Shown: positions 4,215-40,904, counted from the stretch's first letter. The stretch is 64,000 bases of DNA from a virus (IMGVR_UViG_3300043409_000928:124001-188000); one strand, 5' to 3'. Translations and numbers: made by a program. The notes: a model not told the origin generated them from the sequence alone.

Positions 4215-4218
4215 CGCC

Positions 4219-4851: not shown

Positions 4852-4857
4852 AATATT

Positions 4858-9677: not shown

Positions 9678-9705
9678 CGATAAAACCCAGCTTTATTGAT
9701 ATTGG

Positions 9706-9711
9706 TAAATA
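9706..9711 (+). promoter_or_regulatory. Late promoter element TAAATA before gp25
   Basis: GGTAAATA ends 5 nt before ATG 9717, with GGCTT between and no Shine-Dalgarno. The arrangement repeats that before 3567, including the preceding GG. Confidence 0.72.
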
Positions 9712-9716
9712 GGCTT

Positions 9717-10097
9717 ATGCCAATATTCACATCAAAATTTAGGGGTTATAGCTCAGTTGGGACTAGTTTTCTTAGTCCAACTCGATATGACATGGACCTA
9801 GCAAAACAAGACTTAATGAATCATTTTAACACTCGTAAGGGCGAGCGTGTGATGATGCCTGAGTTTGGTAGTATAATTTGGGATCTGTTATTTGAACCGT
9901 TGGATGATCAAACTAAAAAATTAATTGATGAAGATGTTCGTCAAGTTATCAAAAATGACCCACGCTGGCAACTAATTTCAGTAACAATATCTGAAGCACC
10001 CAATGCACTTAACCTTGAAGTTATAATGACATATTTGCCAGCAGATGAGACAGTACAATTACCCCTGATCTATAACAAAGGAACTAATACAGTATGA
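9717..10097 (+). CDS. gp25: Baseplate wedge subunit, gp25-type
   Basis: This 126-residue protein is of the gp25/W lysozyme-like wedge family. Motifs are the N-terminal TRYDMDLAKQDLMNHFNTRKGERVMMPEFG (quoted here in part: residues about 23-52) followed by IIWDLLFEPLD (about 54-64) and IDEDVRQVI. The family forms the ring that initiates sheath assembly. I chose ATG 9717 rather than the upstream in-frame TTG (9696), because 9717 lies 5 nt after the late promoter element and the intervening codons would lie in the promoter itself. It is followed by gp6 with an ATGA overlap. Confidence 0.88.
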   Translation: MPIFTSKFRGYSSVGTSFLSPTRYDMDLAKQDLMNHFNTRKGERVMMPEFGSIIWDLLFEPLDDQTKKLIDEDVRQVIKNDPRWQLISVTISEAPNALNLEVIMTYLPADETVQLPLIYNKGTNTV

Positions 10098-13000
10098 GCC
10101 AATCTCGACGCCTTGGTCAACTAAACGCCGCTGAAAGTTGGCTGAATAATTACCGATACTTAACAAATGCAAACTTTAAGGCCTACGACTTTGATAGTCT
10201 TAGAGCCGCATTGTTATTGCATATACAAACAAATTACCCAGAAGATTTTAACGACTTTATTAACTCAAGTGAATATGTTGGTTTAATTGATCTAATGGCA
10301 TTTATTGGACAAAACTTAGCATTCAGAAGTGATTTGAATCTTCGCGAAACTTTTCTTGAAACTGCTGAAGTACGAGGCAATGTATTAAGTATTGCCCGTC
10401 AACTTGGCTATAAGCCATTCCGCAATGGCGGTGCTTCAGGATTCTTAAGACTTAAGGCAATTAATACCACACAAAATATCTATGATAGCAAAGGAAACAA
10501 CTTGGCTGGGCAGACCATTGTTTGGGGTGATCCTCTAAATTATGATTTTAGCGAACAGTTTATTACAATTATCAATCAGGTGTTGAATAAATCCAATCCA
10601 GTTGGACGCCCTATCAGTAGCATTGTTGACAACGGCACAATTCGTCAATTGTATCAAGTTGACCAGCTGGAAAACAGAACAATGGTCGAAACATTAGGCC
10701 TACCATCAAGAAATAACACAACCTATCCATGTGAAATTATTCCAGTAAACATTGACGTAGACACACAGCTTTCAATTGAAAGCGAACCAAATCCCTACGG
10801 TTATCTGTCAATGTTGTTCAACAACGACGGTACTGGATATGCAAATACTGGCAATGGATGGTTCTTTATGTTCAAGCAAGGTAGTTTGAAATTTGAGGAT
10901 TATGTAATTACCGACTTGGTTGAAAATCGTGTGATTGACATTCAAACAGATAATATCAACGAAACAGATATCTGGGTACAAAGTATTGACGGCGATGGCC
11001 GCATATTGAGTACATGGACACCAGTTCCAAGTACCGTAGGTAAAAATATTATATTCAACGGTGTTGATAAAGACAACAGAAACCTTTATGAAGTAATTAC
11101 TAGAGAAAACGATTCCGTATCTATTAAATTTGGAGACGGTACATTTTCAAATATACCAACAGGTAACATTCGTGTTTGGTTCCGTCAAAGTGCAAACGAG
11201 TCTGTAATATTCAGCCCATTGGATGTAGCCGGAACACAAATTGCATTACGCTACCTTGACAGCACAGGAGCTTCACAAGATCTAATTTGTACATTAGAGT
11301 TAACAGATATTTCAGCCAGCACTCCAACCGAAACGCTATCACAAATTAAAAATCGTGCAAGTCGTACAGCAGCCAGTCAAGAACGAATGATCACTGCAAG
11401 TGATTATAATGTGTATCCTGAAGGAAAAGTAGGTGGCATAGACAAAATTAAAGCGGTCAATAGAACACATGCTGGTCAAAGCTTGTTTACAGACTTTCAA
11501 GATCCAACTGGAACCTATCGTCCTGTGATTTCACTTGCTGATGATGCATTTATATACTCAACTGAAATTATTCAACAATACACAGTCAATGGAGATATGG
11601 GCAAAGAAGAAGTGTTTTCGTGGATGGAGAATCTCTTGCTAGAAAGAGGAATTCACCAGTTATACTACAGAAAATATCAAACGGTTATGCCTATAGACAT
11701 AGTATATTGGATGAATACAGATTCTGCAAATAGCGCAAGCCACGGATATTTTACACTGGACGACGGCACAGGTTTGCCATTGAGAATTGGCAAAGGTAAC
11801 CCAGACCTGCTGTATAGAACTATCAAGAAAAATACTCTTATTAAGACAATTGATGGCAAATGGTCTAAGATTTTAGATGTTTATAGAGAAGGGTTTGGCC
11901 TTACCGACAACACAGGAACTAATACAGGACTTCGTGCAAACGGTCAAGGCGCGATATTTTTAAATACTATCATTGACGCAGACGCACCGTTGCGAGTAAC
12001 TGAATGGTTCCCGTCGTTACGTAGCATTTTTGCACCAACAGAAAAAATAGAAATTTTAAGAGAGTTAGAAAGTTTTCGTTCATTTGGACTGCGATACGAT
12101 CAAACTTTTGATCGCTGGCGCATAATTCGTGCAGACAATATTGATACTAGCAACAACTTTAGTTTAACTCGTGCAGGGGACAATACAAATCAATCACTTG
12201 ATGCCAGTTGGCTAATCCGTATGGATTATGATACTTTAACAGGTATTTGGAATGCAACTACTCGTAAAGATCAAACGGTACTTGGAAGTGTTAACCAACT
12301 TGCATTTTATAATCAGCGATTTGGCAAAGGCATTGATCAAAGTGCTAGAAAAATTATTACCGACCATATTAAGATTTTAAAAATCAATGAAGATATCACT
12401 GAAGAGCTTGAGCTAGACATTGCAGATTATTTTAAATTAGACGATGGCCGTTACGATTCAAACAGAGTTATATTGTGGATGCCTGGTATGGCCCACGGGC
12501 TAGTCCCCAATGATCCTTATATAATTAATAAACTCCTTGGCACCCGAACCCTTATGTTGGAACGATTGCCTTACCTGGATGCAGTTGGACAGTATACACT
12601 GAAACCAGTTGCTGGCGAAACTACAAATACTAAAGTTGGACCGTTGTCTGGCAGACAAGGCATTAAGATTCAATACAACCATGTGCCATTGAGAGATACA
12701 CGAGTAAATGCAACAACAACAAATATCATGGACATGTTTGTTCTAACTAGTGAATATAACGCTACCTTTAGAACATGGGTTGCTGGTGGCGCTCGGACCC
12801 GACAGGAACCTCTGGCATTAGATTCTTACAGCCTTGGTGTGTTAATGGCAGATATTATTCCTTATAAAAGTGTAAGCGATACAATCATTTTCCACCCTGT
12901 TAAGTATAAGATTATTTTTGGGCCAACTAGTACTTTAAGAAACCAAGTAAAAATTCGTGTAACCAAAACAGATGGAACAAAGATCAGCGATGCTGAAATA

Positions 13001-13273
13001 CGCTCGCGTGTCATTCAATCAATCAATGATTACTTTAGTGTTGACAACTGGGATTTTGGAGAATCATTCTTCTTCACCGATATGGCATCCTGGGTGCATA
13101 CACAGTTAAATGGTATGATTACAAGCATTGCATTAATACCTCGACAAAACGGTCTAACACCAAACGACATGTTTCAAATTCGTTGCGAAGACGATGAGCT
13201 TTTAATTAGTAGCGCCACAGTAAGTGATGTCGAAGTTATTAACAGCACTATGTCTATTACAACAAGCGTTTAA
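10094..13273 (+). CDS. gp6: Baseplate wedge subunit, gp6-type
   Basis: This 1059-residue protein is much longer than T4 gp6 (660). It begins with a helical SLRAALLLHIQTNYPEDFNDF segment (about residues 34-55) and RETFLETAEVRGNVLSIARQLGYK (in part) typical of gp6/gpJ wedge proteins. The C-terminus (about 985-1040) has RSRVIQSINDYFSVDNWDFG and FFFTDMASWVH, also typical. It should form the inner baseplate ring with gp25 and gp53. Its ATG overlaps the gp25 stop (ATGA). The extra central 400 residues, with several beta-rich segments, are an insertion relative to T4. Confidence 0.85.
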   Translation: MSQSRRLGQLNAAESWLNNYRYLTNANFKAYDFDSLRAALLLHIQTNYPEDFNDFINSSEYVGLIDLMAFIGQNLAFRSDLNLRETFLETAEVRGNVLSIARQLGYKPFRNGGASGFLRLKAINTTQNIYDSKGNNLAGQTIVWGDPLNYDFSEQFITIINQVLNKSNPVGRPISSIVDNGTIRQLYQVDQLENRTMVETLGLPSRNNTTYPCEIIPVNIDVDTQLSIESEPNPYGYLSMLFNNDGTGYANTGNGWFFMFKQGSLKFEDYVITDLVENRVIDIQTDNINETDIWVQSIDGDGRILSTWTPVPSTVGKNIIFNGVDKDNRNLYEVITRENDSVSIKFGDGTFSNIPTGNIRVWFRQSANESVIFSPLDVAGTQIALRYLDSTGASQDLICTLELTDISASTPTETLSQIKNRASRTAASQERMITASDYNVYPEGKVGGIDKIKAVNRTHAGQSLFTDFQDPTGTYRPVISLADDAFIYSTEIIQQYTVNGDMGKEEVFSWMENLLLERGIHQLYYRKYQTVMPIDIVYWMNTDSANSASHGYFTLDDGTGLPLRIGKGNPDLLYRTIKKNTLIKTIDGKWSKILDVYREGFGLTDNTGTNTGLRANGQGAIFLNTIIDADAPLRVTEWFPSLRSIFAPTEKIEILRELESFRSFGLRYDQTFDRWRIIRADNIDTSNNFSLTRAGDNTNQSLDASWLIRMDYDTLTGIWNATTRKDQTVLGSVNQLAFYNQRFGKGIDQSARKIITDHIKILKINEDITEELELDIADYFKLDDGRYDSNRVILWMPGMAHGLVPNDPYIINKLLGTRTLMLERLPYLDAVGQYTLKPVAGETTNTKVGPLSGRQGIKIQYNHVPLRDTRVNATTTNIMDMFVLTSEYNATFRTWVAGGARTRQEPLALDSYSLGVLMADIIPYKSVSDTIIFHPVKYKIIFGPTSTLRNQVKIRVTKTDGTKISDAEIRSRVIQSINDYFSVDNWDFGESFFFTDMASWVHTQLNGMITSIALIPRQNGLTPNDMFQIRCEDDELLISSATVSDVEVINSTMSITTSV

Positions 13274-13281
13274 GGTAACAA

Positions 13282-16200
13282 ATGGCTAAGAATCCTAAAA
13301 AATTAAATCCAATTGATCCATTGATTAAAACATGGCCAGGCCAATCGTTAAACACGGGAGTTGTTCCTGCCACAACTGATCTACTTCCTGGCATTTTTAG
13401 AACTGACACCAATAAGAAAGTTATTAGTGCAATCATGGAAGACTTATTTCAACCTGCGTCTTTAGAAACACTAAACTTTTTAGTTGGAAGAAATACATCC
13501 AGAAGCAAAGACAATAACTTTTTACCACATCCAACTGCCCGTCGCCAATTAGAAGCTGGTCTTGTTGTATTCACCAATGATGGTGTTGAGACTTTAAGTG
13601 CTGACGATGTTGCTAGAGGTTGGGAATTTAACAACAGAGAAAATGAATTACCTGTTCCATTGGGAGTATTAAATTTACCTATTGATCCAGATAAATTTGT
13701 GAACTGGTCTGATTATTATTGGATTGAAGAAGGCATGCCTTCTGTTAACGTAACAGGCGGCACCCAAGAACAATACTACGACATCAGTAGAGACATTGTT
13801 GGCAGCAGATATTATACACTTCCTATACAGCGCAACGGCCGCGCACTAGAATTAAAAAATGGCATGCGTTTGATTTTCCAACAGCATCCATTCCAAACAG
13901 GTATTGCCGCAGACGAACGCATTGCCTATGTTTCAACTGGTGCAATGGCTGACTCATTGCATTTTGAATTACTAGGATACGATAAACAACTTATTAGCAT
14001 TAGTGTCACTACTGACAGTATTGACGAAGTTACAAACTTACCAATCAGGAAAACCATCCAGCAAGTACAAGGCACGGACTATAGTATCTATGGCAATGAA
14101 ATACAATGGATTGTTAGACCAACAGTAGGCGACAATATCCATGTATTTCTATTAGATTACTATCTGACCAGAGATGACTACAAGCAAATGCGTGTCTGGC
14201 AAGTAGAAGGCGTTGGATCAGAAAAAGGTATTCGATTATTAGGCCGCTCTCACCAAATAACAAATACTGTTTATAGTAAAATAACACAAGGCCTTTGGGA
14301 TCAAACTGCAATACCATGGGACCGCATTGAATGGGATGGCAACATCTTGGGTATCAATGCAAAACATTATGTACTACAAAAAGTAGGTGCAGAAAATAGA
14401 AACGCACACAGCCGAGTTAATGTATGGTATCACAAGGATACCATACAGACTTTAGCAACCTTCTTAGACATCCCGTTTAATGACATTGCTAAGCCATCCA
14501 GCAAGGGTCTTCGCCCAATCTTGGAATTTGATCACAGACTGGAATTATGGAATCATGGAAAGACATATCGTCCATGGGTCAACAGTGTTGAGTCTAGTAA
14601 GTCGTCTCCAAACACGTATGTGGGAATGCCTTTAAAAGAATTTAGCATTGAACAAAAGATTGCAAATGAAGATACACTTGACTATCAATTGAATACCGCT
14701 CCACGAATCTTATGGTTAACAACAAATAGTACTGTTGTTAACAAAATTATCAATTTTATTTCAGAAGACGGTGTTATTACTGGCTATTTTGTCGAGACTG
14801 CAAATGCAGATGATGCAGTGGTTGTGGCTAATCCTTTTTATGTCAGCGGCCTTTCGTACACTGAATACTATTGGTTACCAACTGGCGAAGCAAGATTGGC
14901 CAACTACAGAAAAACTAGAACCACTCATCCTCTGTTTGAATTATACAGTAGAGATGGTATAAAATTAAGTGATCCTGCCAGCACTACTACAGGAACTCGA
15001 CCAGGAGTTGTTAACAGTACAATTATACAATTAGCATCAAATGGAGATACAGTAGATAACGAATCAGGTTATAAATTGAAATTTTTAACTAGTCAATTCA
15101 ATCAACTAAGCGAAGGCAACATTGCTAAAAATGCAATGTATGATATCTCATATGAATTTACTCAACAGGTTTATGCTGTATATTTTGAAGCGGGTGCGGC
15201 CAAGACCGTGCCAGGCCCGTATTCGTATAGAATTATACAAGGTAAGCCGCTTGAATACGAACTTAGTAACGGTTGGAAAAGGGCATGGTTTAGATTAAAG
15301 TCATGGGCAATTCGACGCATTGATATAACAGGCGATACTGTTATCCCACTTGATACCACAATGTGGCCAACATATAACTGGGGAATTTCTCCAATTGCCG
15401 GAGAAGCAAAATTTATTCATCTGGACGACTTTAAACCGGTGGTTGAAAATTGTGCAGTTGTTGCTCGCGGCGAGTTGGCCATATTTGATATGTACTTCCC
15501 GCTGGTCTCGTCTGTAATTGTTAACTTTGGCTCGGCTGAAATTGAACTCGATGTAGTCAACGGCAAACTCGAATTTGTAGTGCCATCAACAGCTAGCGAT
15601 ATATGTACAATCAGCTGGCTCAATAATAAATTAACTTTCAGAGTAATTGAAACCTATCAAGATCCGAGAAATGTAAAAGTCAAATTGAACGGCCTTCCAG
15701 CAGAGTATGAGTTTAATGTAGTAAGAGCAGGCACTGACATATTATCTGTGTCGCTGGTTATGACCGGCACAGGCACAATAGATATAATGCATCAGGGCAA
15801 CAGAGTAGAAACTGATATTTTAACAGCCATTCCAGGATTTGATCTTAATGCAGACCAGCTGACGGGTTTTGGCAATGTTGCATTGTCTACTTCTTCACTT
15901 TCTGTTGGTCGACTAGTTGGTGGGCTACAAGCAGAAATTGAAGCAACCAAAAGAAAAGGTCAGTCATGGATTGATTGTATGGCAGTTGGAGCAATGAGTG
16001 GCATATTGATGGCACAACACAGTTCTATCCGTGCCGCCTGGGCTACTTTTAAATTAAACCCGTCGTTGGACAAATTACTAATTGCAAGATCAATGGCATC
16101 ATGGCGCTGGTATCGTCGATTTATCAACAAGCTAGAAGAAAGTTTAACAATTTTAGATTTAGACAACACAACTACTGCATCTGCGCTAGATAGGATACTA

Positions 16201-19200
16201 GAAGAATTACTACTGGGAACCAATTACAGTTCAACTGATGCAGTCACTGGCATGGCATTTACTACCAACGGAATGCTACCAACGGAATATAATGTTACTG
16301 TGTTGCAGTCACGCTTTGCACTGGCATCACTGCTAGAGACTGGTATAAATGGAAACGACCATGTATATTTTTACTTGAATGGCCAACTATTAAAGAACAG
16401 AGTTGATTACACATTTGATACTGTATCAAATGAAGTAGTTTTAAAACTGCCTGCATCCGTTGGAAGCACAGTTACAATATTTCAGGCCAATGAAGCAGAT
16501 GTGTTTACCGCTATTCCAGCAAGCCCTGCCAAGTTAGGTCTTTCTGGAGTATACGAGCCTAAGATTGTTGTTGAAGCATGGGGAGATGAAACTAGAACAT
16601 TAATACAAAGACACGATGGTTCTAGGATAACAGCATATACACCGCCAGATGAATCAACAGTTGAAAATTATATTCTTAATAAGATTATTCTTGAATTTGA
16701 AACACGGGTATTCAATGGTATTATAAAAACAGTAGGCGACATTGGCGTACAACTTCAAGTCAACAATTTTAACAATAAAGATCCGTTAGAAGCACTGGCA
16801 AGGGCACAACTTGAATGGTATTCTACTAACAGTATTAATTTTAGAGATCGTTCAGATTTTAAACTGACAGATCCATGGACATGGAACTATAGTGGATACA
16901 GTTGGAGAGGCATGTACATTAACTATTTTGGAACATACAATCTAAATACAGCACCGTGGGAATCGCTAGGTTATAGTATTATGCCAGCATGGTGGGATAG
17001 TCATTATTCGTGGACTGACGCAGGCAAGCGAGCTAGCTTAGAATTTGCATTGCAAAATGGTATTACAAGCAGTCCTGCAGATGCATTAACAATTAACCCT
17101 GCGTTTGTTCGCAATGTTGATTCTTTCCCAGTTGGCACAGATGGAAAGTTATTGGATCCAGTAATCTGGGGAATTGATGCACCAACAGCAGACGAAGCCG
17201 AACAGCCTTGGGAAATTGGTTCTTGGGGAACTGCTGAAACAGCATGGAGAAGAAGCATTGCCGGAGCATGGGCCGGTGTGCTATATGCTGTCAATGACTA
17301 CGCATACCTGAGCGAGTTTTTTGACAGCTCAGTTGATCCGTTCTCTATGCAATTGCAATTTGATAATGATAGTGTTAAACCTAAAAGCTTTAATTCTATG
17401 AGTCCAAGTCAATTCTTTCAAGACCGCCCAACAGTTGGCATAGGTGCAGTGATATTTGAAGCTTATAGAGAATTTAATTTAATTGGCGAAACTCCACTAA
17501 TTGATCTGATGTCAATTAACATTCGTGTCGGATTTGGCATAGGTGGATTTAGCGACAATGATTTCACATTAAAAATGCCATTTGCTAAATTTCAAATTGG
17601 TAGTTATGTACCGGACGAAGATGTATTAATGACTCTAAGCGAAGGCGTAGCATTGCCAGCATTACGATACACTGCGGTTCGCATTGAAAAAGACAATGAA
17701 GGTTTCAGAGTCTATGGATTTGATCCAGGCCAACGCTACTTTACTATTTTTCAGCCATCTACTCGTAGTAGCACTGGCAATTTTCCAAGTACACGACAAC
17801 AACTGGTAACAAGCTATGGTACTTTTATAGAATACTTAGAATGGGACCAAGCTGGGACTGTGGTACCGTATGGACAGCTTGTTTCAAACAAACAGGACCT
17901 GTTGACATTCTTACTGGGCCTAGGGGAATTTCAAGCCAGCAAGGGACTGATGCTGGATCAAATTAACGATCGAGGAACAGTTACCACATGGAAGCAGGCT
18001 GCAATTGACGCATTTGCATGGATTGAAGAAAATTGGGGTGACCGTCACTACTGTGTGGTTGGTGTTGCAACCAATGATGGTTTAAAGTTTTATCACGAAA
18101 GAGGTATGCTAGACAGGCTTGACAGTGAAGTAGGACAAAGCGGTAAAATTTTATTCAACTCGGGCAGATCGGCTCTTGCAAATGAAATTCTAATCACACG
18201 CGAGTATGAGCCTAATGTGGATAAAATTTCTCCGGCAAGCGATGAACAAATTGTGTTTGCTGATATTAGATTGCGCGAATATGAACATGTAGTTTATATC
18301 AATAGAAGAACTAAGTTCAGCGATACCATTGTTGACTTCTTAACAGGAGCAAGACTTGATAGTTTAAAATTCTCTGGTCGTAGGTCATACGCTTGGACAG
18401 GCCGCCCCAACGCCCGAGGCCTAATTCCAAATGAAACCGGAATTGTGCCCAGTTTTGATGCAATAGTATCTGACATCATTGAAAGTCATAAACCTGAATC
18501 AAGCGCATTTGATGGGTTCAAGAGTCGTGTGTCGCGAGCAAACTCAGTGCCGTCTAAGGACACAGTTGTATTTGATATTATACAAGATCCCAATGCGGCA
18601 TTTTTATATAGACAAGGTTTACAAACAGCATCTGGTACCAACTTGGCAATTGATGCATTATTTAGAAATGTAAATTTTGATATTCCAGGTCGTCTACAAG
18701 ATGTAAGTGTTAACGAACAGTGGATGTTTGATACAGGCAACTATGGTCGCCTTGGTGAACAAAAAATTTGGGAAATTGAATTACGCAAAGAAGATTTTAC
18801 TGGCAATAGACAAATTATTCGATTTAAAGAAGTTAATACAGCAGTAGACTTGCAAGGCGACAATATTATTGATATCATTGGCGTAAATGATCCGCGCTGG
18901 GTTACACGGCCAACCAACTCGGTTGACTTCAGAACCATCTCTCGTAATAACATAACGCTCGAGTATAGCAAACAAAACGGATGGTTACCAAGTGCTGGTA
19001 TTGCCGAGTTAACAGATACCAATATACAAATAGTCACTTTAGATGACCTAAACTATAGTGATTTGCTAGGACTAACAGACATTGCAAATAATGTAACCAA
19101 TACATTAACTACAGGTAAACTATTTGCAATCAGGTCATTCAGCAAATACGGTGATTATGAAGTTGGCGACTATACATGGTATACTGGTATTTTATATCAA

Positions 19201-21888
19201 TCAATTGAAAAATATCGTGGCTCTGTTACAGGAGCATTTGATTCCACAATGTGGGAAAGTGTCCCAGTAACTGGCAATTTGCTTCCATCTGCATGGATCA
19301 GTGATTACAATGGCAACGGCTGGAATGTATTACAAGTGCTTGCCCCTATGTACGTTGAAGAAGTTTGTCCCAATGCACTAGAGCAGTCGTTAAACGAAAG
19401 CAAGGCTACATTTGCTAGCCCACACGGACTGATTGTTGGAGAAAAAATCATCTTAGGCGGAAGCGGAGACGGGGCATATGATAGTGTACATGTAGTAAAA
19501 GAAGTAGTTGACGATTATAACATTTTAATTCCAGCCAGAAGTACCAGTGGCGAAATTGTTTACGATATGGTAGCCTATCGCTTGGTTGAAGTTAAATTTA
19601 ATTCTGAAGCAGAATGGCAACAATCTGGTATTAATTTTTCAGCCGGAATGAAAGCGTATATTGACTATGGTGATACAGAAGGTACATGGAAAATTGTATC
19701 TTATGTGGCTGATGGTACAAGCACTCCTGCCATTGTAACAGAGTACAGCGGGCCAATGGTGGCCAGCGGAGATATTACAACAGTACAGCTTACTGATTAT
19801 TATACACAAACTGTAGTTTCTGACGTAGAAGTATTTGATCCTTATAAAGGATTAACAATTGACCAAGTGGCTATACATTTAGATTATAAAGGAATTGTAG
19901 ATCCTGCAACTTATAATGTAACAGACTTGGGAACAACAGATGAATATGCAGTTGAAAGCTGGGGTGCAGATGAAGTTGGTAAACTGTGGTGGGACTTGAC
20001 TAAACTTCGTTACATTGAATACGAACAAACAGATGATATACAATATCGTGCAAGCCATTGGGGAGAGAAGTTTGCAAATACAAAGGCTGTGGTATATGAA
20101 TGGACAGGCACTGACAGCCTGCCTAATACCACAGATTACCCATTTGCCAGATTGGATACAAGTAGTGGACCACAAGGCCAAATTCGTTACAGTGAAAACG
20201 ACGAAACTGATTTTGACACTAGTGGAACAACTACACGCTACTATTTCTGGAATGGCAATGTTGACACAGTACCAGTAGGAATAGACCGGCCGGCCGCAAA
20301 TGCAATTGAATCAATCTTAAATGATCCAGATGCAAACGGTGTAGCTTGGATGTCGCCAATTGATACTAATGCATTTGTTATTTCAAATATCAATGACTTC
20401 TTCAATAACACTGACCGACTTGTATTAAGAATAGAACAAAATACAAATGTTGATCAAATTTACAACTTTAGTAAAATTGTTACTGAAGGATTTGCTGGCG
20501 ATGTAATTGACGACTATTTTTATAATCGATTAGAATCATCAGTTGCTGGGCGAGACAACTACAGAGAGTTGTACATCATCAAGCCATATGTGGGCGGCCA
20601 GTCTTATACCAAAGGCGACTACATTGTTAACTTTAACAATGGATATTTTAAAGCAGTGACAACACCAGGTGCGTACGGCACTAACGAGTTTCCATTGCTG
20701 ACAGGAATATCAGATCGCAGAGAAGATATCAAACGAGTATGGACAGCAAAGCCCGGGCTCGACCATAAAATTTTTATAGCGGCAAAAAACTTTGTGGCCA
20801 ATGGAACTGTTGCAGTTGATCGCGCCAGCAGAGTTATGGTGCGTAGTGCGGCAACAGCACTGATTACAAATATTTTAGAATCATTGTCACCAGAGTATTA
20901 TGCTGTGGTAAACAATCGACGAGCAGTACCAAGTAAGAAACTGCATCCGTTACGCAGATATGGCAATAAGTATTTTCCATATCCACAAAGTTGGTTTAGT
21001 AATTTGACCAATGCTCGACGAACTCTTGTTGTTGCGGCAAATGATTCTTTATTAAAGATTGATACAGTTAGTAAGGCCAATTGGGACTTCTATCTAAGAA
21101 CATACCGACCATTGTACGGAACGTACTCAAGAGACCTTAGTAAATTTTGGAAATATGTTGACTATGCAGTTGATGGATATATTCCAGGCAGCGAAGCCAA
21201 CCGGTTGACTTCATTTATACAAGTCCAAGACTTGGATAGTACAGCAACTAATTTTGCAATTGTTGACAATGCTAACAATACCATCGAAGCATACAATCGT
21301 GATGGCACAACCATTGAATTGGTATACAGAAAAAATGGTACCATACAGTTCTTGGACACAGTATGGAACGGAAGTTTAGGTGATGCATGGGACAGGAGTA
21401 GATGGGATAGAACTCCGTGGGATGACGATGGCAGTGAAATTATTGAAAGTATTTTACGAGCTCTGCGACTCAACATCTTCACAGCAACAGATGAAGGATA
21501 CTTCAATCTGCTATTCTTTGCAATGATAAAAGAAAGCCTGGTTCAAATTCCGTTTGCCAATTGGGTAAGCAAAACTACCTACCTGGATGTGGCACAAACC
21601 AGTTCAAATTCGTTGCTTAAAGTTGGCACATTCTTCAACAAGAATGACTCTACGATCAAGAAGTATTTGAATGAGGTTAAACCTTACCACAGTAAAATTG
21701 TTGACACCAATCAATACAGCAAGTCTTCATTTGCATTTGATGTTAAATTAGACGAAATCATTGCGTTAAACATTACAACTGTAACGCTTATTACAACAGA
21801 AGGTGAAGATATACTTCAAACTGAATCAAATCAGGGCATTGCTTACAAGTTTGATACTGTAACGCAGAGCCTTACAGAAGAAGGATAA
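13282..21888 (+). CDS. Giant virion structural protein, probably baseplate wedge/periphery
   Basis: At 2868 residues this is the largest gene of the window. It follows gp6 directly, in the slot held by gp7/gp8 in T4 and by very large structural proteins in marine T4-like phages. Recurrent Trp-Asp-rich turns are seen, for example WSDYYWIEEG (about residues 138-147), PWDRIEWDGN, PWTWNYSGYSW, and WDRSRWDRTPWDDD near residue 2710, and a C-terminal EVKPYHSKIVDT (about 2798-2810) seen in related proteins. These point to many beta-rich repeated modules rather than an enzyme; I see no catalytic signature. It may form the wedge arm or attach tail fibres. The assignment is by position. Confidence 0.6.
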   Translation: MAKNPKKLNPIDPLIKTWPGQSLNTGVVPATTDLLPGIFRTDTNKKVISAIMEDLFQPASLETLNFLVGRNTSRSKDNNFLPHPTARRQLEAGLVVFTNDGVETLSADDVARGWEFNNRENELPVPLGVLNLPIDPDKFVNWSDYYWIEEGMPSVNVTGGTQEQYYDISRDIVGSRYYTLPIQRNGRALELKNGMRLIFQQHPFQTGIAADERIAYVSTGAMADSLHFELLGYDKQLISISVTTDSIDEVTNLPIRKTIQQVQGTDYSIYGNEIQWIVRPTVGDNIHVFLLDYYLTRDDYKQMRVWQVEGVGSEKGIRLLGRSHQITNTVYSKITQGLWDQTAIPWDRIEWDGNILGINAKHYVLQKVGAENRNAHSRVNVWYHKDTIQTLATFLDIPFNDIAKPSSKGLRPILEFDHRLELWNHGKTYRPWVNSVESSKSSPNTYVGMPLKEFSIEQKIANEDTLDYQLNTAPRILWLTTNSTVVNKIINFISEDGVITGYFVETANADDAVVVANPFYVSGLSYTEYYWLPTGEARLANYRKTRTTHPLFELYSRDGIKLSDPASTTTGTRPGVVNSTIIQLASNGDTVDNESGYKLKFLTSQFNQLSEGNIAKNAMYDISYEFTQQVYAVYFEAGAAKTVPGPYSYRIIQGKPLEYELSNGWKRAWFRLKSWAIRRIDITGDTVIPLDTTMWPTYNWGISPIAGEAKFIHLDDFKPVVENCAVVARGELAIFDMYFPLVSSVIVNFGSAEIELDVVNGKLEFVVPSTASDICTISWLNNKLTFRVIETYQDPRNVKVKLNGLPAEYEFNVVRAGTDILSVSLVMTGTGTIDIMHQGNRVETDILTAIPGFDLNADQLTGFGNVALSTSSLSVGRLVGGLQAEIEATKRKGQSWIDCMAVGAMSGILMAQHSSIRAAWATFKLNPSLDKLLIARSMASWRWYRRFINKLEESLTILDLDNTTTASALDRILEELLLGTNYSSTDAVTGMAFTTNGMLPTEYNVTVLQSRFALASLLETGINGNDHVYFYLNGQLLKNRVDYTFDTVSNEVVLKLPASVGSTVTIFQANEADVFTAIPASPAKLGLSGVYEPKIVVEAWGDETRTLIQRHDGSRITAYTPPDESTVENYILNKIILEFETRVFNGIIKTVGDIGVQLQVNNFNNKDPLEALARAQLEWYSTNSINFRDRSDFKLTDPWTWNYSGYSWRGMYINYFGTYNLNTAPWESLGYSIMPAWWDSHYSWTDAGKRASLEFALQNGITSSPADALTINPAFVRNVDSFPVGTDGKLLDPVIWGIDAPTADEAEQPWEIGSWGTAETAWRRSIAGAWAGVLYAVNDYAYLSEFFDSSVDPFSMQLQFDNDSVKPKSFNSMSPSQFFQDRPTVGIGAVIFEAYREFNLIGETPLIDLMSINIRVGFGIGGFSDNDFTLKMPFAKFQIGSYVPDEDVLMTLSEGVALPALRYTAVRIEKDNEGFRVYGFDPGQRYFTIFQPSTRSSTGNFPSTRQQLVTSYGTFIEYLEWDQAGTVVPYGQLVSNKQDLLTFLLGLGEFQASKGLMLDQINDRGTVTTWKQAAIDAFAWIEENWGDRHYCVVGVATNDGLKFYHERGMLDRLDSEVGQSGKILFNSGRSALANEILITREYEPNVDKISPASDEQIVFADIRLREYEHVVYINRRTKFSDTIVDFLTGARLDSLKFSGRRSYAWTGRPNARGLIPNETGIVPSFDAIVSDIIESHKPESSAFDGFKSRVSRANSVPSKDTVVFDIIQDPNAAFLYRQGLQTASGTNLAIDALFRNVNFDIPGRLQDVSVNEQWMFDTGNYGRLGEQKIWEIELRKEDFTGNRQIIRFKEVNTAVDLQGDNIIDIIGVNDPRWVTRPTNSVDFRTISRNNITLEYSKQNGWLPSAGIAELTDTNIQIVTLDDLNYSDLLGLTDIANNVTNTLTTGKLFAIRSFSKYGDYEVGDYTWYTGILYQSIEKYRGSVTGAFDSTMWESVPVTGNLLPSAWISDYNGNGWNVLQVLAPMYVEEVCPNALEQSLNESKATFASPHGLIVGEKIILGGSGDGAYDSVHVVKEVVDDYNILIPARSTSGEIVYDMVAYRLVEVKFNSEAEWQQSGINFSAGMKAYIDYGDTEGTWKIVSYVADGTSTPAIVTEYSGPMVASGDITTVQLTDYYTQTVVSDVEVFDPYKGLTIDQVAIHLDYKGIVDPATYNVTDLGTTDEYAVESWGADEVGKLWWDLTKLRYIEYEQTDDIQYRASHWGEKFANTKAVVYEWTGTDSLPNTTDYPFARLDTSSGPQGQIRYSENDETDFDTSGTTTRYYFWNGNVDTVPVGIDRPAANAIESILNDPDANGVAWMSPIDTNAFVISNINDFFNNTDRLVLRIEQNTNVDQIYNFSKIVTEGFAGDVIDDYFYNRLESSVAGRDNYRELYIIKPYVGGQSYTKGDYIVNFNNGYFKAVTTPGAYGTNEFPLLTGISDRREDIKRVWTAKPGLDHKIFIAAKNFVANGTVAVDRASRVMVRSAATALITNILESLSPEYYAVVNNRRAVPSKKLHPLRRYGNKYFPYPQSWFSNLTNARRTLVVAANDSLLKIDTVSKANWDFYLRTYRPLYGTYSRDLSKFWKYVDYAVDGYIPGSEANRLTSFIQVQDLDSTATNFAIVDNANNTIEAYNRDGTTIELVYRKNGTIQFLDTVWNGSLGDAWDRSRWDRTPWDDDGSEIIESILRALRLNIFTATDEGYFNLLFFAMIKESLVQIPFANWVSKTTYLDVAQTSSNSLLKVGTFFNKNDSTIKKYLNEVKPYHSKIVDTNQYSKSSFAFDVKLDEIIALNITTVTLITTEGEDILQTESNQGIAYKFDTVTQSLTEEG

Positions 21889-21909: not shown

Positions 21910-21915
21910 TAAATA
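21910..21915 (+). promoter_or_regulatory. Late promoter element TAAATA, leaderless configuration
   Basis: AACTAAATA ends 5 nt before ATG 21921 (spacer TGCTT). The element's own last A with the next two bases makes an ATG at 21915, which would place the start inside the promoter; 21921 is therefore preferred. Confidence 0.72.
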
Positions 21916-21920
21916 TGCTT

Positions 21921-22547
21921 ATGAACAAGATTCAATTACCAGTCAGTATCGAAACATTTATTGTCATCAAAGATGCCGATACCGGAGAAATATTGCGTGA
22001 AGGCTCCAATGCCATTCACCAGGAAAACATGAGCACCGCCATTGCAACGGGACTGTCCCGTGGTAATAATCACTTTATCAGTGAAATACACTTTGGCATT
22101 GGTGCAAGTATTACAGGCATTGACGGAGTAATTACATACCGCAAGCCCAATGTAACTGGCATTGACGCCAACTTACACAAAGCAACATATTTTAGGGTAG
22201 TCGACGACGAAGACCTAAACAATCCAGACGCAGAAGCAAACAATGTGACTGTGACACATACAACAGGCACAACCTATGCAGATACTATTGTGACCGCAAC
22301 AATTGATTATAGTGATCCGTTGGTAAACGACAGCACATATAACATTGTTAACGGTACACAACAAAGCTTAGATGCCACAACCAGTGTTGACGGTGAGGTT
22401 GTGTTTGATGAAATTGGATTAAAAACCAAAGGGACAACTGGGGTCAATACAGGTAATTTGCTCACGCATTTTATATTCCACCCAGTTGAAAAGCAAATTA
22501 ATCAGCGTATACAAATTATATACACACTGAGAGTGCAGACCGGTTAA
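21921..22547 (+). CDS. Virion structural protein, gp8-like position
   Basis: This 208-residue beta-rich protein has no enzyme motif. Recognisable segments are FIVIKDADTGEILREGSNAIH (about residues 12-32), FGIGASITGIDG and, at the end, LLTHFIFHPVEKQINQRIQI (about 184-203). The pattern of a short strand-rich domain, ending in a FHPVxK hairpin, is that of conserved structural proteins that follow the giant wedge gene in marine T4-like phages. The likely site is the baseplate periphery. ATG 21921 is used because it lies 5 nt downstream of the late element; the ATG 6 nt upstream lies in the element. Confidence 0.5.
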   Translation: MNKIQLPVSIETFIVIKDADTGEILREGSNAIHQENMSTAIATGLSRGNNHFISEIHFGIGASITGIDGVITYRKPNVTGIDANLHKATYFRVVDDEDLNNPDAEANNVTVTHTTGTTYADTIVTATIDYSDPLVNDSTYNIVNGTQQSLDATTSVDGEVVFDEIGLKTKGTTGVNTGNLLTHFIFHPVEKQINQRIQIIYTLRVQTG

Positions 22548-22599: not shown

Positions 22600-23667
22600 A
22601 TGGCATACGAAGTAAACAAAAGCAACGGTGATATATTAGTTAACTTGATTGATGGTGAAGTTGACAATACTACTACGCCCTTAAATTTACTAGGTAAAAA
22701 CTACCTGGGATATGGCGAACTAATCGCTGAAAACTTTGTTCACATGCTTGAAAATTTTTCAAGCAGTTCAGAGCCTGTGAGCCCTATTACCGGTCAGCTA
22801 TGGTTCAACACCGGTGAGAACAGATTGGCAGTACAAGATACTGATGAACATTGGAAAACGCTGGCCCATTTGGTGAGTCGTCAGAATAGACCAACTGATA
22901 CTGCTCGCTTAGGCGACTTTTGGTGGGATACAACAAACAAAGCATTGAAGATTTATGTTGGAACAACAAGTGCAGATCAAGTACTTCCGGGCTACAATTC
23001 TGGTTGGGTAAATGCCAGTGCGTTCCAAGGCAACAGCGGTATCAGCTTTGCAGACTTACTAGATACAAACGGAACCACACACAGGGTAGTTCGTTTTAAT
23101 GTAAATGGAATCTGCGTTGTAATTCTTAGCACTGATGCAGAGTTCACAATTGCACAGTCACATGCTGTTAATGGATTTCTTAGAATTGGTAAAGGTATTA
23201 ACATGAATACCACAGGCAACGACACACAGGCATTTAATCCAAATGCGTTTAAGTTGCGCGGTATTAGTATGGAAGCTGAATTTGCTGACGTGGCTGAAAT
23301 TTATGTTGGCGATGCTACATATGAGCCAGGTACATTGGTAAGCTTGGGTGGAGTAGCAGAAGTAACACAAACAGTTGGTGTAGCAGATCAAAATATCTTT
23401 GGTATTGTTTCTACTAGACCAGCTTACTTGATGAATGCACGACAAAAGCACGAAATAAATGCAATGCCAATTGCTGTTGCAGGACGAATCCCAGTCAAGG
23501 TCACTGGCATCGTAAACAAAGGCGACAGATTAGTTGCAAGCGATATCCCTGGAGTAGCACAATCTGCCACAGTTGATGTTCCAGCCTGGAGCATTATTGG
23601 TCGTAGCTTACAAAATTTCAGCGGAGAAGGCGTCGGTAAAGTCGAAGCTACAGTTGGAGTTAGGTAA
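22600..23667 (+). CDS. Tail-fibre-like structural protein
   Basis: This 355-residue protein starts with NKSNGDILVNLIDGEVDN and PITGQLWFNTGENRLAVQD (about residues 64-82), a repeat-like block that recurs in fibre and neck proteins of marine T4-like phages as GQLWFNTxxxxLxVxD. A second copy, LGDFWWDTTNKALKIYVG, follows at about 104-121. The C-terminal half (about 225-355) has ADVAEIYVGDATYEPGTLVS, GRIPVKVTGIVNKGDRLV and related blocks shared with the ends of many fibre proteins. A distal tail-fibre or baseplate-spike role is likely. The Shine-Dalgarno AAGGA precedes ATG 22600. Confidence 0.6.
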   Translation: MAYEVNKSNGDILVNLIDGEVDNTTTPLNLLGKNYLGYGELIAENFVHMLENFSSSSEPVSPITGQLWFNTGENRLAVQDTDEHWKTLAHLVSRQNRPTDTARLGDFWWDTTNKALKIYVGTTSADQVLPGYNSGWVNASAFQGNSGISFADLLDTNGTTHRVVRFNVNGICVVILSTDAEFTIAQSHAVNGFLRIGKGINMNTTGNDTQAFNPNAFKLRGISMEAEFADVAEIYVGDATYEPGTLVSLGGVAEVTQTVGVADQNIFGIVSTRPAYLMNARQKHEINAMPIAVAGRIPVKVTGIVNKGDRLVASDIPGVAQSATVDVPAWSIIGRSLQNFSGEGVGKVEATVGVR

Positions 23668-23672
23668 GCACA

Positions 23673-26600
23673 ATGTCTACCAAACGCTATATTGTTGCTG
23701 TCAATAAAGATGTAGTCGATCTGAATCTATTTTGGAATCAGGTTGAGTCTGCCACTGCTGGCATTGCAAACATTCCTGACCGCCCAGTTGCAATAGCAAA
23801 CAATCGAAGTGCGTTTACACGAATTTGCGAATATGAGTTAACTGAAGCTGAAGCTGAACAGTTACGCAATGATCCTAGGGTGTATTCGGTTGGGCGACCT
23901 TATGAAGATTTACCTTGGATTACAATAGCACCAAACTCTATTACTCAATCTGATAATTTTACAAAACCGGCCAATGGTAACAGTAGTAACAGCTTTGTAA
24001 ATTGGGGAATGCCTCGACACAGTAGTACTAGCAATGTTTATGCAACTAATTCAAATCCACCATACATTTATGATCTAGATGGAACTGGTGTTGATGTTAT
24101 TATTTCAGACTCTGGCATACAAGCAGACCATCCTGAATTTACAGATGCTAATGGCAACACCAGAGTCTACAATCCAAATTGGGATAACATTGCTAGTCAA
24201 ATTGGTGCATCTGCTACAAGTGGATGGGATACAGCAAGTTATATCTATGGTAACACATCAAGTGTTGCAGGCCACGGTACCCATGTAGCTGGTACAGTAG
24301 CAGGAAAAACATACGGTTGGGCAAAGAATTCAAGAATACTATCATTAAGATCAACTGGGGAATTACCAGGTGACATAGCTGATGTATTTTCTATGATAAA
24401 ACATTGGCATCAAAATAAGGGCAGTAATAGACCAACCGTAGTTAATATGAGCTGGGGTACATCAATTAGTGCTAATGATCTGGGACTAACAGATCCAAGT
24501 CAAACTTCGTTGGTAAAACAGATCATTGATTCTGTAACATATCGAGGTACCACATATACTACAAATGGTTCAATTGAATCAGATAACTTCTATCAGTCTA
24601 AGGGGCTACTAGTAGGTTCTGACAATTTTGCATGGGCATCTTTGCTTAATGGTTTACCAATCCATGATACAACATATGACACTTTTATTAGTGAAATGCT
24701 AAGTGCTGGAATAGTCCTGACACATTCAGCTGGTAATAGTAGCTATAAAATTGATATACCCACTGGGCTAGATTATAATAATAATTTTTTAATAAACATT
24801 GATGCTATTTTTCCAGGATATGGAACACTTACAGTTTATTATAATCGAGGTAGCAATCCATCAGTTCCTATTACTGTAGGTAGCTTAGATAGTGTTACAT
24901 CTGGATTAACTGATCAAGCCGCAACATATTCAATGAAAGGCCCAGGCGTCGATATATGGGCCGCTGGTACTAATATTATGAGTGCCTGGGCAAACAATGA
25001 TGGTAGTAGCGTAGCGTATTTTAAAAATTCTAGCTTTAAACAAAAAAACAATACAGGTACTAGTATGGCTAGTCCTAATATTGCTGGTATAGCCGCATTG
25101 TACCTGCAACAAAATCCAACAGCAACACCTGCACAAGTTAAAGCGGCTTTATTGGCTAACGCCACCAACACAATTTTAAACACTGGAACCACAACTGATT
25201 ATACCAATGGCAGATCATTGCTAGGCAGTAGTCCTAAGGTTGCCTATATTAATACAGTAACAACTACACCACCACCAACAACCTACACATTAACTGTAAT
25301 CAAGACTGGCTCTGGCGACGGAACAATAACAAGTTTACCAGCAGGTATTACAGGTCCAGGTACAGCAACATTTGCCGCAGGCACAGTTGTTACCTTAACC
25401 GGAGCACCACAAGCAAATAGTTCTTTTGCTGGGTGGTCTGGAGCCGCAACAGGTACTGCTCCTGCAAGCATTGCAATGAATGCTAACAAAACAGTTACAG
25501 CAACATTCAATGCAATCAATGTTCCTTCTTATACAATTACAACAGCACCTACGCAACTCAGTGAAGGCGCTACAGCACCATTTGTTGTTACAACAACCAA
25601 TGTTCCAAACAATGCAACATTGTATTGGAGAATTGTCAACGGTGCCAGCAACTTTACGCAAGCAAGTGGTTCATTTACTATCGCTTCCAACAGCGGAACA
25701 TTTACAGTAACGCCTAATACAAATACCATAGTTGATGGCAATAGAACATTCGTTGTTGAAATTAAAACAGTTTCAACCAACGGGGTAACAGTTGCTACCA
25801 GCAATCCCGTTACCATTGTGGATATGAACTCATACCCAGTGGCCGGAACAGAACTATCAACATTCTGCAGAGACTATGATCAATGGGCAATGATTGCAGA
25901 TGGCGCAGGTGGGCAAACTGAACAACTTAAACAAGCAGACAGCACAAACTGCGGATATGATCCAACATGGCCAGCCAAGGACTCTATCATAAGTGAAGGC
26001 TGTGTCCCAGGTACATATACCTATAGAGTTACTCGAGCAAACGGATACAATGGAACATACAACGAAAACGAAATCAACAGTATCCGTTGTGGTTACCAGG
26101 CAACTGGCACACCAATGGGCGAACCTTATTGCCTGGGTCTTGATCGATACCAGGACTATGCAGACGGTTATGGTGGAAGATACAACCTGGTAATTGAAAG
26201 GAATAGCACACTATGCGGATATGTACCACGAATAAGACCAGCCGAAACAAAACCACAACCAGAAAAGAAGATAACAGAGCACTGGTACAATACACTAACA
26301 ACAGAAGTGAATGAGTTGTTTGGGGATATACATGCTGGCAAAGGACCTAGTGCGGATGTGACTGTGCAAGAAAGTGCAATCAAATGGGGCTGGGGCGGAG
26401 AGAATGTTGCCCAAGTTGGAGTCTCTGAAAAGATAACAGCGGTTCATACCAATAAACTTGTAAATCGTGTTAACTTGAGTACATTAAGAACTGGCAGTAG
26501 TGATCAAGAATTGGTCATTGTTTCTAAAGGTGGCAGGCTAACTGATGAGTTTTTCAAAACTGTAACAGATTTACTAGATACTGCCAGGGAAATAAAGAAC

Positions 26601-27389
26601 ACTGTTGAACCAAGTATGACCGAATTAAGCGTACTTGGATCATACAACAGCACTGAAAATTGGACCAACATTTTACAAACAGAAGTTCAATTGGACTTTG
26701 GCACTTACGAAGATGCTCGACATTTCTTTAACGCAGGCGGTGATATCAGACTTAGTTTTAGCACACAAGATGGTTACGGTCCAGGTTACCATAATTGGCG
26801 CTGTATCTTTTTTGATCAAGGAACATTAAAATTAAATGTTGATAGTCTACTCAGCTTGAACTCCCGTGGTATTACACAGGATAAAGGCTTTGCCCAGATC
26901 ATTGAAGAAGAACAATTGCTATACACTAGTCCTAGTGCCAGCGGTGGTAGTGGAGGCTATGGAGGCTATGGAGGCTATGGCGGCTATGGAGGCTATGGAG
27001 GCTATGGCGGATATGGAGGCTATGGAGGCTATGATAATTGCCACACTGGCGGATATGGAGGCTATGGAGGCTATGGAGGCTATGGAGGCTATGGAGGCTA
27101 CGGCCACCAGCATCATGACCACAGCGGATATGGCGGCTATGGCGGATATGGCGGATATGGAGGCTACGGTGGTTACGCATCCAGCCGCTTAAAAGTATAT
27201 GGTTCAATTGTCAACGATAAACTAATTTTAAGAGTAATCCTTGATAATTCTGGACTTGGAGTAAGAATTCGAGGCATAATGAAAATGGCAGTTTCTGTGA
27301 CTCATCCTTCAACTGTGACCGAAAACAATGTCACATTAACATTGCCAGTTCCTACTATAGAACTGACACAAGGCTGGACTGAAATCTAA
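23673..27389 (+). CDS. Subtilisin-like (S8) serine protease fused to virion adhesin-like domains with Gly-Gly-Tyr repeats
   Basis: This 1238-residue protein joins several domains. Residues about 1-80 resemble an inhibitor-I9-like propeptide. About 135-525 are a subtilase domain with Asp146 (ISDSGIQ), His201 (GHGTHVAGT), oxyanion Asn355 (SAGNSS) and Ser464 (GTSMASPNIAG), all in canonical order, so it looks active. About 535-610 match a divergent InlB-type B-repeat (SFAGWSG...NKTVTATF). About 615-705 are an Ig/cadherin-like strand block. About 715-855 hold Cys-containing repeats (ITSIRCGYxxTGTP-like, three copies). About 860-1090 resemble a virion structural domain (HFFNAGGDIRLSFSTQDG). About 1092-1168 are Gly-Tyr repeats with a His-rich break, followed by a beta-rich end. 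It lies among fibre genes, so the protease is probably on the virion. Confidence 0.85.
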   Translation: MSTKRYIVAVNKDVVDLNLFWNQVESATAGIANIPDRPVAIANNRSAFTRICEYELTEAEAEQLRNDPRVYSVGRPYEDLPWITIAPNSITQSDNFTKPANGNSSNSFVNWGMPRHSSTSNVYATNSNPPYIYDLDGTGVDVIISDSGIQADHPEFTDANGNTRVYNPNWDNIASQIGASATSGWDTASYIYGNTSSVAGHGTHVAGTVAGKTYGWAKNSRILSLRSTGELPGDIADVFSMIKHWHQNKGSNRPTVVNMSWGTSISANDLGLTDPSQTSLVKQIIDSVTYRGTTYTTNGSIESDNFYQSKGLLVGSDNFAWASLLNGLPIHDTTYDTFISEMLSAGIVLTHSAGNSSYKIDIPTGLDYNNNFLINIDAIFPGYGTLTVYYNRGSNPSVPITVGSLDSVTSGLTDQAATYSMKGPGVDIWAAGTNIMSAWANNDGSSVAYFKNSSFKQKNNTGTSMASPNIAGIAALYLQQNPTATPAQVKAALLANATNTILNTGTTTDYTNGRSLLGSSPKVAYINTVTTTPPPTTYTLTVIKTGSGDGTITSLPAGITGPGTATFAAGTVVTLTGAPQANSSFAGWSGAATGTAPASIAMNANKTVTATFNAINVPSYTITTAPTQLSEGATAPFVVTTTNVPNNATLYWRIVNGASNFTQASGSFTIASNSGTFTVTPNTNTIVDGNRTFVVEIKTVSTNGVTVATSNPVTIVDMNSYPVAGTELSTFCRDYDQWAMIADGAGGQTEQLKQADSTNCGYDPTWPAKDSIISEGCVPGTYTYRVTRANGYNGTYNENEINSIRCGYQATGTPMGEPYCLGLDRYQDYADGYGGRYNLVIERNSTLCGYVPRIRPAETKPQPEKKITEHWYNTLTTEVNELFGDIHAGKGPSADVTVQESAIKWGWGGENVAQVGVSEKITAVHTNKLVNRVNLSTLRTGSSDQELVIVSKGGRLTDEFFKTVTDLLDTAREIKNTVEPSMTELSVLGSYNSTENWTNILQTEVQLDFGTYEDARHFFNAGGDIRLSFSTQDGYGPGYHNWRCIFFDQGTLKLNVDSLLSLNSRGITQDKGFAQIIEEEQLLYTSPSASGGSGGYGGYGGYGGYGGYGGYGGYGGYGGYDNCHTGGYGGYGGYGGYGGYGGYGHQHHDHSGYGGYGGYGGYGGYGGYASSRLKVYGSIVNDKLILRVILDNSGLGVRIRGIMKMAVSVTHPSTVTENNVTLTLPVPTIELTQGWTEI
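26950..27177 (+). repeat. In-frame 9-bp tandem repeats encoding Gly-Gly-Tyr
   Basis: The unit GGAGGCTAT, with a few synonymous variants (GGCGGCTAT, GGCGGATAT), occurs in three runs of about 9, 6 and 5 copies, divided by segments encoding DNCHT and HQHHDHS. All copies keep the reading frame. Long runs of identical 9-mers point to growth by slippage or recombination, so copy number may vary between relatives. Confidence 0.92.
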
Positions 27390-27793: not shown

Positions 27794-28672
27794 ATGAGTA
27801 CCAAAGGCTTTATGATGTTTGCTTACAATAACGAACAATTGGATTACACCCAACTGGCGTTAGTAGCGGCATACGCTGTAAAAAAACACATGCCAGACTA
27901 TCCAGTTGTGCTAGTCACGAATCAAGCCAGTCTGGAACATTGTAAAAATACACATGGCCCTGCAATAATGAATGCCGCATGGGATGATATCATATTAACT
28001 GATCCAGGCTATGAAAAGAATATGCGACTGCACCACGATGGCGCATATTATAGCTTTAATGCACAGTTTACAAATACAAACAAGCATGACATTTATAATC
28101 TAAGTCCGTTTGACGAAACTATTTTAATTGACACAGACTACTTGTGCGGCAATGCCAACTTGTCAATGCTGTTTGACAGCCAATATGATGTTGCCATGTA
28201 TAGAGATGCTCGCAATCTTCGTTATGAAGAACCCTACACAACTGAACGATGGTTACACTATGCAGGTATTCGCATGTGGTGGAGTACTGTGGTATATTGG
28301 CGCAAGAGCGAAGAAGCCAAACACTTCTTTAATATTTGGGCCGAAGTTAAAAAGAACTGGGAATATTATCGCTTCTTGTATAAGTTTCCTGGTACATTAT
28401 ATCGCACAGACTATTCAGCCAGCATTGCCGCGCACATGTGTGATGGTTGGCAAGATGGTGGCTTCATTGGCCAAATTCCTAACTTCATGCGTTACCAAGA
28501 TCAGCGCGATGATATAGTTGAAGTAAAGGGTCCTAATAGTTGGGTAATGTTAAGCAATTTACCCGACGAATGGAAGAACATGGTAGTTGAAATAGCCGGG
28601 GAAGATGTACACTTGATGAATAAAAAAAGCATACTTCGCAACTATGATCAAATTATGGAACTGTTGGCATGA
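27794..28672 (+). CDS. Glycosyltransferase, GT-A fold (GT8-like)
   Basis: This 292-residue protein has the GT-A layout. FMMFAYNNEQLDYTQLALVAAYAVK (in part, about residues 6-30) is the first strand and helix. PVVLVTNQAS (about 36-45) follows. The DxD metal-sugar-nucleotide motif is in ETILIDTDYLCGN (about 106-118). A second region has AMYRDARN (about 132-139). It should transfer a sugar from a nucleotide donor to an unknown acceptor. It is the first of a chain of overlapping genes (the next start overlaps by 4 nt) and probably works with the later glycosyltransferase-like proteins at 30343-33157. Confidence 0.72.
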   Translation: MSTKGFMMFAYNNEQLDYTQLALVAAYAVKKHMPDYPVVLVTNQASLEHCKNTHGPAIMNAAWDDIILTDPGYEKNMRLHHDGAYYSFNAQFTNTNKHDIYNLSPFDETILIDTDYLCGNANLSMLFDSQYDVAMYRDARNLRYEEPYTTERWLHYAGIRMWWSTVVYWRKSEEAKHFFNIWAEVKKNWEYYRFLYKFPGTLYRTDYSASIAAHMCDGWQDGGFIGQIPNFMRYQDQRDDIVEVKGPNSWVMLSNLPDEWKNMVVEIAGEDVHLMNKKSILRNYDQIMELLA

Positions 28673-31314: not shown

Positions 31315-31317
31315 AGT

Positions 31318-40896: not shown

Positions 40897-40904
40897 TATA
40901 AATA
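40897..40904 (+). promoter_or_regulatory. Consensus late promoter TATAAATA, leaderless
   Basis: The full T4-like consensus TATAAATA ends 5 nt (GCAGT) before ATG 40910. There is no Shine-Dalgarno. Of all sites in the window it is the best match to the T4 consensus. Confidence 0.82.

Follow-up and report, generated by a model that had tools for sequence, protein, structure and literature searches.

The 64,000-nucleotide stretch analyzed here (G000:C1:124001-188000; hereafter the window) is part of a 285,304-base virus record and encodes, after a T4-type baseplate run of gp5-, gp25- and gp6-like genes and a fibre-type gene, a large protein with a complete subtilisin-type protease at its N-terminus. 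The corresponding gene, from now on referred to as gene X, is a single ATG-started open reading frame (ORF) spanning exactly positions 23673-27389, with only 5 bp between the stop codon of the fibre-type gene and its own start. Its product combines a prodomain, a peptidase S8 domain, an InlB repeat, an immunoglobulin (Ig)-like linker, three cysteine (CGY) repeats and a C-terminal core domain (Table 1). The major capsid protein encoded in the virus record is of gp23 type (PF07068, E = 2.6e-97), and sequence similarity identifies the virus as a T4-like jumbo phage. The original prediction, made from the DNA alone, had placed an N-terminal protease on a large protein in the fibre region of a T4-like phage, and this placement was correct.

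Table 1. Features of gene X and of the genes upstream of it, in window coordinates (residue numbers refer to the gene X protein).
Feature	Position	Strand	Evidence
gp5-like hub/lysozyme, gp25-like and gp6-like baseplate wedge genes	7500..13273	+	PHROG matches
Virion structural protein, 2868 amino acids (aa), phrog_10938	13282..21888	+	PHROG match
Conserved gene, 210 aa, phrog_11259	21915..22547	+	PHROG match
Fibre-type gene, 355 aa, directly 5' of gene X	22600..23667	+	PHROG matches including tail fiber protein phrog_19602
Gene X, 1238 aa: prodomain, S8 protease, InlB repeat, Ig-like, CGY repeats, core	23673..27389	+	ORF
Prodomain, residues ~1-76, inhibitor-I9-like	23673..23900	+	AlphaFold, predicted local distance difference test (pLDDT) ~90+; conserved in phrog_9158
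S8 (proteinase-K-like) catalytic domain, residues ~110-530	24000..25262	+	Pfam PF00082; Foldseek to proteinase K/aqualysin
Catalytic Asp146	24108..24110	+	Invariant 81/81
Catalytic His201	24273..24275	+	Invariant 81/81
Oxyanion-hole Asn355	24735..24737	+	Invariant 81/81
Catalytic Ser464 (GTSMASP)	25062..25064	+	Invariant 81/81
Divergent InlB B-repeat (PF18998), residues 542-615	25296..25517	+	Pfam E = 9.5e-8, above cut-off
Ig-like linker, residues 616-720	25518..25832	+	Weak Ig_3 match, E = 0.04
Three cysteine repeats, GT..C....DG.GG......CGY, residues 721-850	25833..26222	+	Sequence; CGY at 760, 806 and 848
Core domain, first part, residues ~870-1090, helices then beta-sandwich	26280..26942	+	AlphaFold; orthologues
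Gly-Gly-Tyr repeat tract, residues ~1094-1168, predicted disordered loop within core	26951..27160	+	Tandem Repeats Finder, period 9; pLDDT <50
Core domain, second part, residues 1168-1238, beta strands	27174..27386	+	Alignment conservation; pLDDT >90

The head of the gene X protein matches Pfam Peptidase_S8 over residues 137-502 (E = 7e-28; 98.2 bits against a cut-off of 21.8) and phrog_9158, a phage family of unknown function spanning its S8 module, over residues 3-646, from the prodomain through the end of S8 (E = 1e-66). The four active-site residues named in the original prediction were found to be invariant in an alignment of 81 rows, comprising the window protein and 80 viral-contig homologues. 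An AlphaFold model of residues 1-615, based on a 66-row alignment (mean pLDDT 82.8), consists of a prodomain followed by a subtilisin fold, and its top Foldseek matches in the PDB are proteinase-K-like enzymes (2b6n, 4dzt and proteinase K; E = 1.7e-18, TM score 0.80 on the target). Profile, catalytic residues and predicted fold all assign the head to the proteinase-K-like enzymes of peptidase S8. Median pairwise dN/dS among close homologue pairs of the protease, which are not independent of each other, is 0.13, and the protease family is therefore maintained by purifying selection.

The prodomain is predicted to adopt a beta-alpha-beta-beta-alpha-beta order, with strands at residues 4-10, 41-43, 51-56 and 70-74 and helices at 17-25 and 58-65. 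Its match to Pfam Inhibitor_I9 is below threshold (12.5 bits against a cut-off of 21.2, E = 0.24), so that I9-like is a statement on predicted topology; the prodomain may still work in the manner of I9 inhibitors while lying outside the Pfam family. No signal peptide was found in the gene X protein.

In the C-terminal part, the InlB B-repeat region was poorly modelled by AlphaFold, while most blocks of the first part of the core reached pLDDT values above 90. CGY repeats of the same type are present in relatives. The Gly-Gly-Tyr tract, a 9-bp tandem repeat, varies in length among relatives and is missing from distant core homologues. It had been described as the end of the protein but turned out to be internal, and is followed by a conserved segment of about 70 residues. 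No Pfam or PHROG family matched the core, and comparison of its model with PDB folds returned no match (best E = 0.19). In BFVD the core has strong matches (E = 1e-49, 4e-16 and 3e-14), all to phage proteins listed there without a name or characterisation, and at least 245 viral-contig stretches encode core relatives. When C-terminal parts were searched against annotated phages by tblastn, a single weak match of 82 aa was obtained, between the Ig-like stretch and a cyanophage virion structural protein; the other queries gave no matches. Across Pfam, PHROG and PDB, no known fibre, spike or adhesin family matched the C-terminal part, and no paralogue of it was found elsewhere in the virus genome. 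The proposed resemblance of this region to fibre or structural domains thus stands as far as phage-only distribution and structural context are concerned, but not at the level of any family or fold match of the core. By these comparisons the core is an uncharacterised, phage-only domain.

Orthologous loci, gathered by using the core and the fibre-type neighbour as queries, share the order of fibre-type gene, gene X and a common set of downstream genes; the fibre-type gene is a conserved partner of gene X in relatives. The core was found in every closely related locus that could be read through, while the slot N-terminal to it varies widely. It is empty in six loci (L104, L107, L113, L144, L154 and L170; proteins of 323-353 aa), holds only CGY repeats in three (L099, L102 and L106), InlB plus CGY repeats in L109, an Ig-like domain in L143 and L152, and a BP74_N domain in L116 (669-2324, the same gene as L151; PF23621, E = 2.3e-27). 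S8 occupies the slot in the window, L103, L110, L016/L147, L149, L160 and L167. In L150 (1624-4083) and L163 (1507-4020), the same core carries an S53 sedolisin instead: the L163 head matches kumamolisin 1t1g (E = 1.2e-35) with the E..D, GD and GTSA motifs aligned, and the S53 label of L150 is based on its close similarity to the L163 sequence. An observation from a further locus is that S8 and core lie in two overlapping ORFs (L117:557-3730 and 3727-5268), each of which seems to hold a part of one Ig-like domain; this could reflect either a frameshift, real or due to sequencing, or a split gene.

Pairwise comparison of close relatives locates the exchange precisely. Over 10 kb, L102 and L103 share 83% identity; their alignment stops at L103:10070 and restarts at L103:12335, and the S8 head module is therefore present in L103 and missing from L102. 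L160 (S8) and L163 (S53) share 85% identity as far as the gene start, show no similarity across the head, and then align again at 93% and 87%; L170, which has no head, matches both at 87-90% identity on each flank. Between such near-identical neighbours, the breakpoint lies at the start codon of gene X. In a tree of the fibre-type neighbour from 29 loci, well-supported branches force at least five gains or losses of S8. By these alignments, head exchange is both recent and precise. Because an S53 kumamolisin-type protease occupies the same slot, proteolysis itself is likely the selected property. These features render it very unlikely that the subtilase fold serves only as a binding module with incidental catalysis: as that explanation would have it, BP74_N and Ig-like domains, which also occur as heads, are not known to be enzymes, but the catalytic residues are invariant, a differently built second protease is found in the same slot and a zymogen-type prodomain has been retained.

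In a wider survey, S8 relatives are encoded in at least 569 viral-contig stretches and in 45 phage records, mostly of T4-like cyanophages, several of them labelled subtilisin-like serine protease. An active protease in such an architecture had been regarded as unusual among T4-like phages, a view that the wide distribution of phrog_9158 in T4-like cyanophages and viral contigs does not support. Alignment searches were needed to recover the viral-contig relatives, exact peptide patterns of the whole protein being too strict to match anything there. Among about 85,000 bacterial and archaeal genomes, only few near full-length relatives were detected, all in contigs of environmental metagenome-assembled genomes and possibly of phage origin; because relatives are so few, the protease family is essentially viral. 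S8 homologues nearly always lie directly 3' of another gene, often of fibre type as judged by eye from the C-termini of the upstream products, a regular expression having proved too narrow (13/79) and the alignment too diverse to interpret. Homologues do not uniformly lack fibre-like domains: L103, L110, L149 and L160 share the whole domain string of the window protein, and gp144 of Synechococcus phage S-SCSM1 carries lectin-type domains instead.

The virus genome itself encodes further S8 proteins. A second phrog_9158 protease (L003:1360-2910, minus strand; G000:C1:244716-245720) is a stand-alone protein of 516 aa; the gene immediately before it is of fibre type (274 aa), with YadA-head repeats scoring below threshold. 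The third (L001:505-2574, minus strand; G000:C1:38221-39144; 689 aa) belongs to a different branch; it seems to carry a signal peptide, and its C-terminus, inspected by eye and without a Pfam match, resembles an outer-membrane barrel, which is odd for a phage. The S8 proteins of L050, L070, L076 and L093 are exceptionally long (1362-2114 aa) and differ in their C-terminal parts (glycine-rich; Reeler, Calx-beta matches in L070 and L093), representing further protease fusions to adhesin-like domains.

Two homologues bear on where the gene X product might be located. S-SCSM1 gp144 (1411 aa) combines S8 with two Laminin_G/ConA stretches and carries the record note "(virion protein)", one of 47 such tags counted in that record. 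PMC9602691 reports 45 S-SCSM1 proteins identified by mass spectrometry of caesium chloride-purified particles. Because non-structural proteins named in that study are tagged as well, the tags very probably mark detection. In Agrobacterium phage Atu_ph07, gp329 (S8 plus He_PIG, 1251 aa) is the last gene of the cluster of coding sequences (CDS) 284-329, and according to PMC6102473, most Atu_ph07 virion proteins found by mass spectrometry fall in three clusters, including CDS 284-329. These homologues make the virion-type protein of the original prediction plausible in its location. Within the literature searched, no direct report of a virion subtilase in phages was found.

With moderate confidence, we propose that the gene X product is a virion protein on which an exchangeable protease head is displayed; this head would mature by itself and digest proteins of the host surface. 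The conserved C-terminal core (residues ~870-1238) would be its structural part and the N-terminal S8 its exchangeable head. Synthesized in the cytosol without a signal peptide, the protein would be held as an inactive zymogen by the I9-like prodomain, whose fold is predicted, and would mature by autocatalytic prodomain removal in the linker at about residues 76-110. The core would then join the tail or baseplate periphery beside the upstream fibre-type product, as gene order and homologues suggest. Presumably exposed on the particle, the protease could cut host surface proteins, for example those of the surface layer, sheath, pilus or matrix, and aid adsorption much as polysaccharide depolymerases do on capsules. 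Adsorption modules are the phage parts that change by such exchange. Since S8 is replaced by S53 or by nothing in near-identical phages, its job is therefore likely host-facing rather than one of fixed assembly processing.

Several points weigh against this proposal. Most homologues (68/80) are stand-alone proteins with fewer than 100 aa beyond the match and could act unattached, and the same genome encodes the two further S8 genes described above. Attachment of the core to the virion is suggested by context, because the core lacks a structural relative of known function. The virion location of the gene X product is plausible by analogy with these two homologues, gp144 and gp329. For gp144, detection in virions is deduced from tags whose number differs slightly from that of the reported proteins (47 and 45), and for gp329 it is deduced from a cluster boundary.

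It could also be imagined that S8 is an assembly or maturation protease, a tail counterpart of the prohead protease that cleaves itself as well as adjacent tail or fibre proteins during morphogenesis, as the original prediction had considered. The usual proximity of the S8 gene to a fibre-type or structural gene, as well as the self-cleavage implied by the prodomain, would fit such a role. Yet sister phages whose neighbouring genes are 83-90% identical lack S8 or carry S53 instead, and no S8 was found anywhere in the 177.7-kb record of L099, which is possibly incomplete. We consider assembly processing unlikely because such free loss and replacement does not fit a required step. Equally improbable in our assessment is an intracellular or injected protease that degrades host proteins in defence, takeover or lysis, with the core serving only for packaging or delivery. 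The many stand-alone homologues of about 520 aa without an anchoring domain and the missing signal peptide are in line with this explanation, but here the protease is fused to a core encoded in a baseplate/fibre run, and the repeat-rich InlB/Ig/CGY and lectin-type partners better suit an exposed location.

Comparison with known systems helps to delineate what is new. The subtilisin-like serine proteases of T4-like cyanophages (S-H38, S-CREM1, Sf-FR1 and P-SSM2) share prodomain and S8 with gene X at 28-34% identity over residues ~2-490 and are likewise encoded directly after a structural gene (gp9/gp10-type or other). However, at 550-611 aa they have no large C-terminal extension, whereas the gene X module is fused to InlB/CGY repeats and core. 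S-SCSM1 gp144, annotated as a baseplate wedge subunit, resembles gene X in carrying an N-terminal prodomain and S8 on a large structural-cluster protein, but has a lectin-type Laminin_G/ConA C-terminus and no core. Atu_ph07 gp329 and the S8 peptidase of Sinorhizobium phage Phosso are similar in size (~1250-1290 aa) and in having an N-terminal S8 followed by Ig-type repeats; their S8 is distant (25-26% identity), their repeats are He_PIG and there is no sign of the core. Tailspike and fibre depolymerases are, like the proposed gene X product, virion-displayed enzymes exchanged as modules between close relatives, but their substrate is polysaccharide and they are usually located near the C-terminal end of trimeric spikes, whereas the gene X protease is N-terminal. 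Proteinase K and aqualysin (MEROPS S8A) share fold and catalytic residues with the head but are secreted cellular enzymes with signal peptides. While the protease module itself was already known from annotation, the fusion of S8 to an uncharacterised core and the occurrence of two protease families at one swap site appear, from the sequences compared, to be new.

With regard to the wider neighborhood, the nearest counterparts of the gp6-like protein come from jumbo phages, among them Atu_ph07, SCTP-2, Phosso and large Escherichia phages (~29-36% identity). A cyanophage origin was rejected based on this affinity and on a search of the virus record that found no photosystem reaction-centre gene. 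Late control of gene X, proposed originally, found no support: TATAAATA, the T4 late motif, has a single occurrence in the window, at 40897, against 4.6 expected and so below chance, and the same scan found no T4-type late promoter of this kind before the gene X operon. Downstream of gene X, conserved genes at 27794-30346 precede three adjoining paralogue-like genes at 30343-33157 (323, 290 and 326 aa; 'VFISYDEPNADENYADLLEKCPWAKR' type), which are conserved in relatives.

Most of the enzymes known to clear a phage's path to the cell cut polysaccharide or peptidoglycan. More tentatively than for gene X itself, we suggest that T4-like phages carry a dedicated docking protein, formed by the phage-only core with its Gly-Tyr loop, and that proteases of two different families, S8 and S53, are swapped at the N-terminus of this protein. 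Host-surface proteolysis might then be a general, horizontally exchanged adsorption strategy, akin to capsule depolymerases and not yet described as such. With an intact protease under purifying selection in hundreds of viral contigs, exchanged for a second protease family at a precise site of a conserved structural protein, proteolysis by virions would become a general strategy open to testing. The same system offers a functional approach to the uncharacterised core and its at least 245 relatives, for which near-identical natural phages differing only in the head would provide a ready comparison set.

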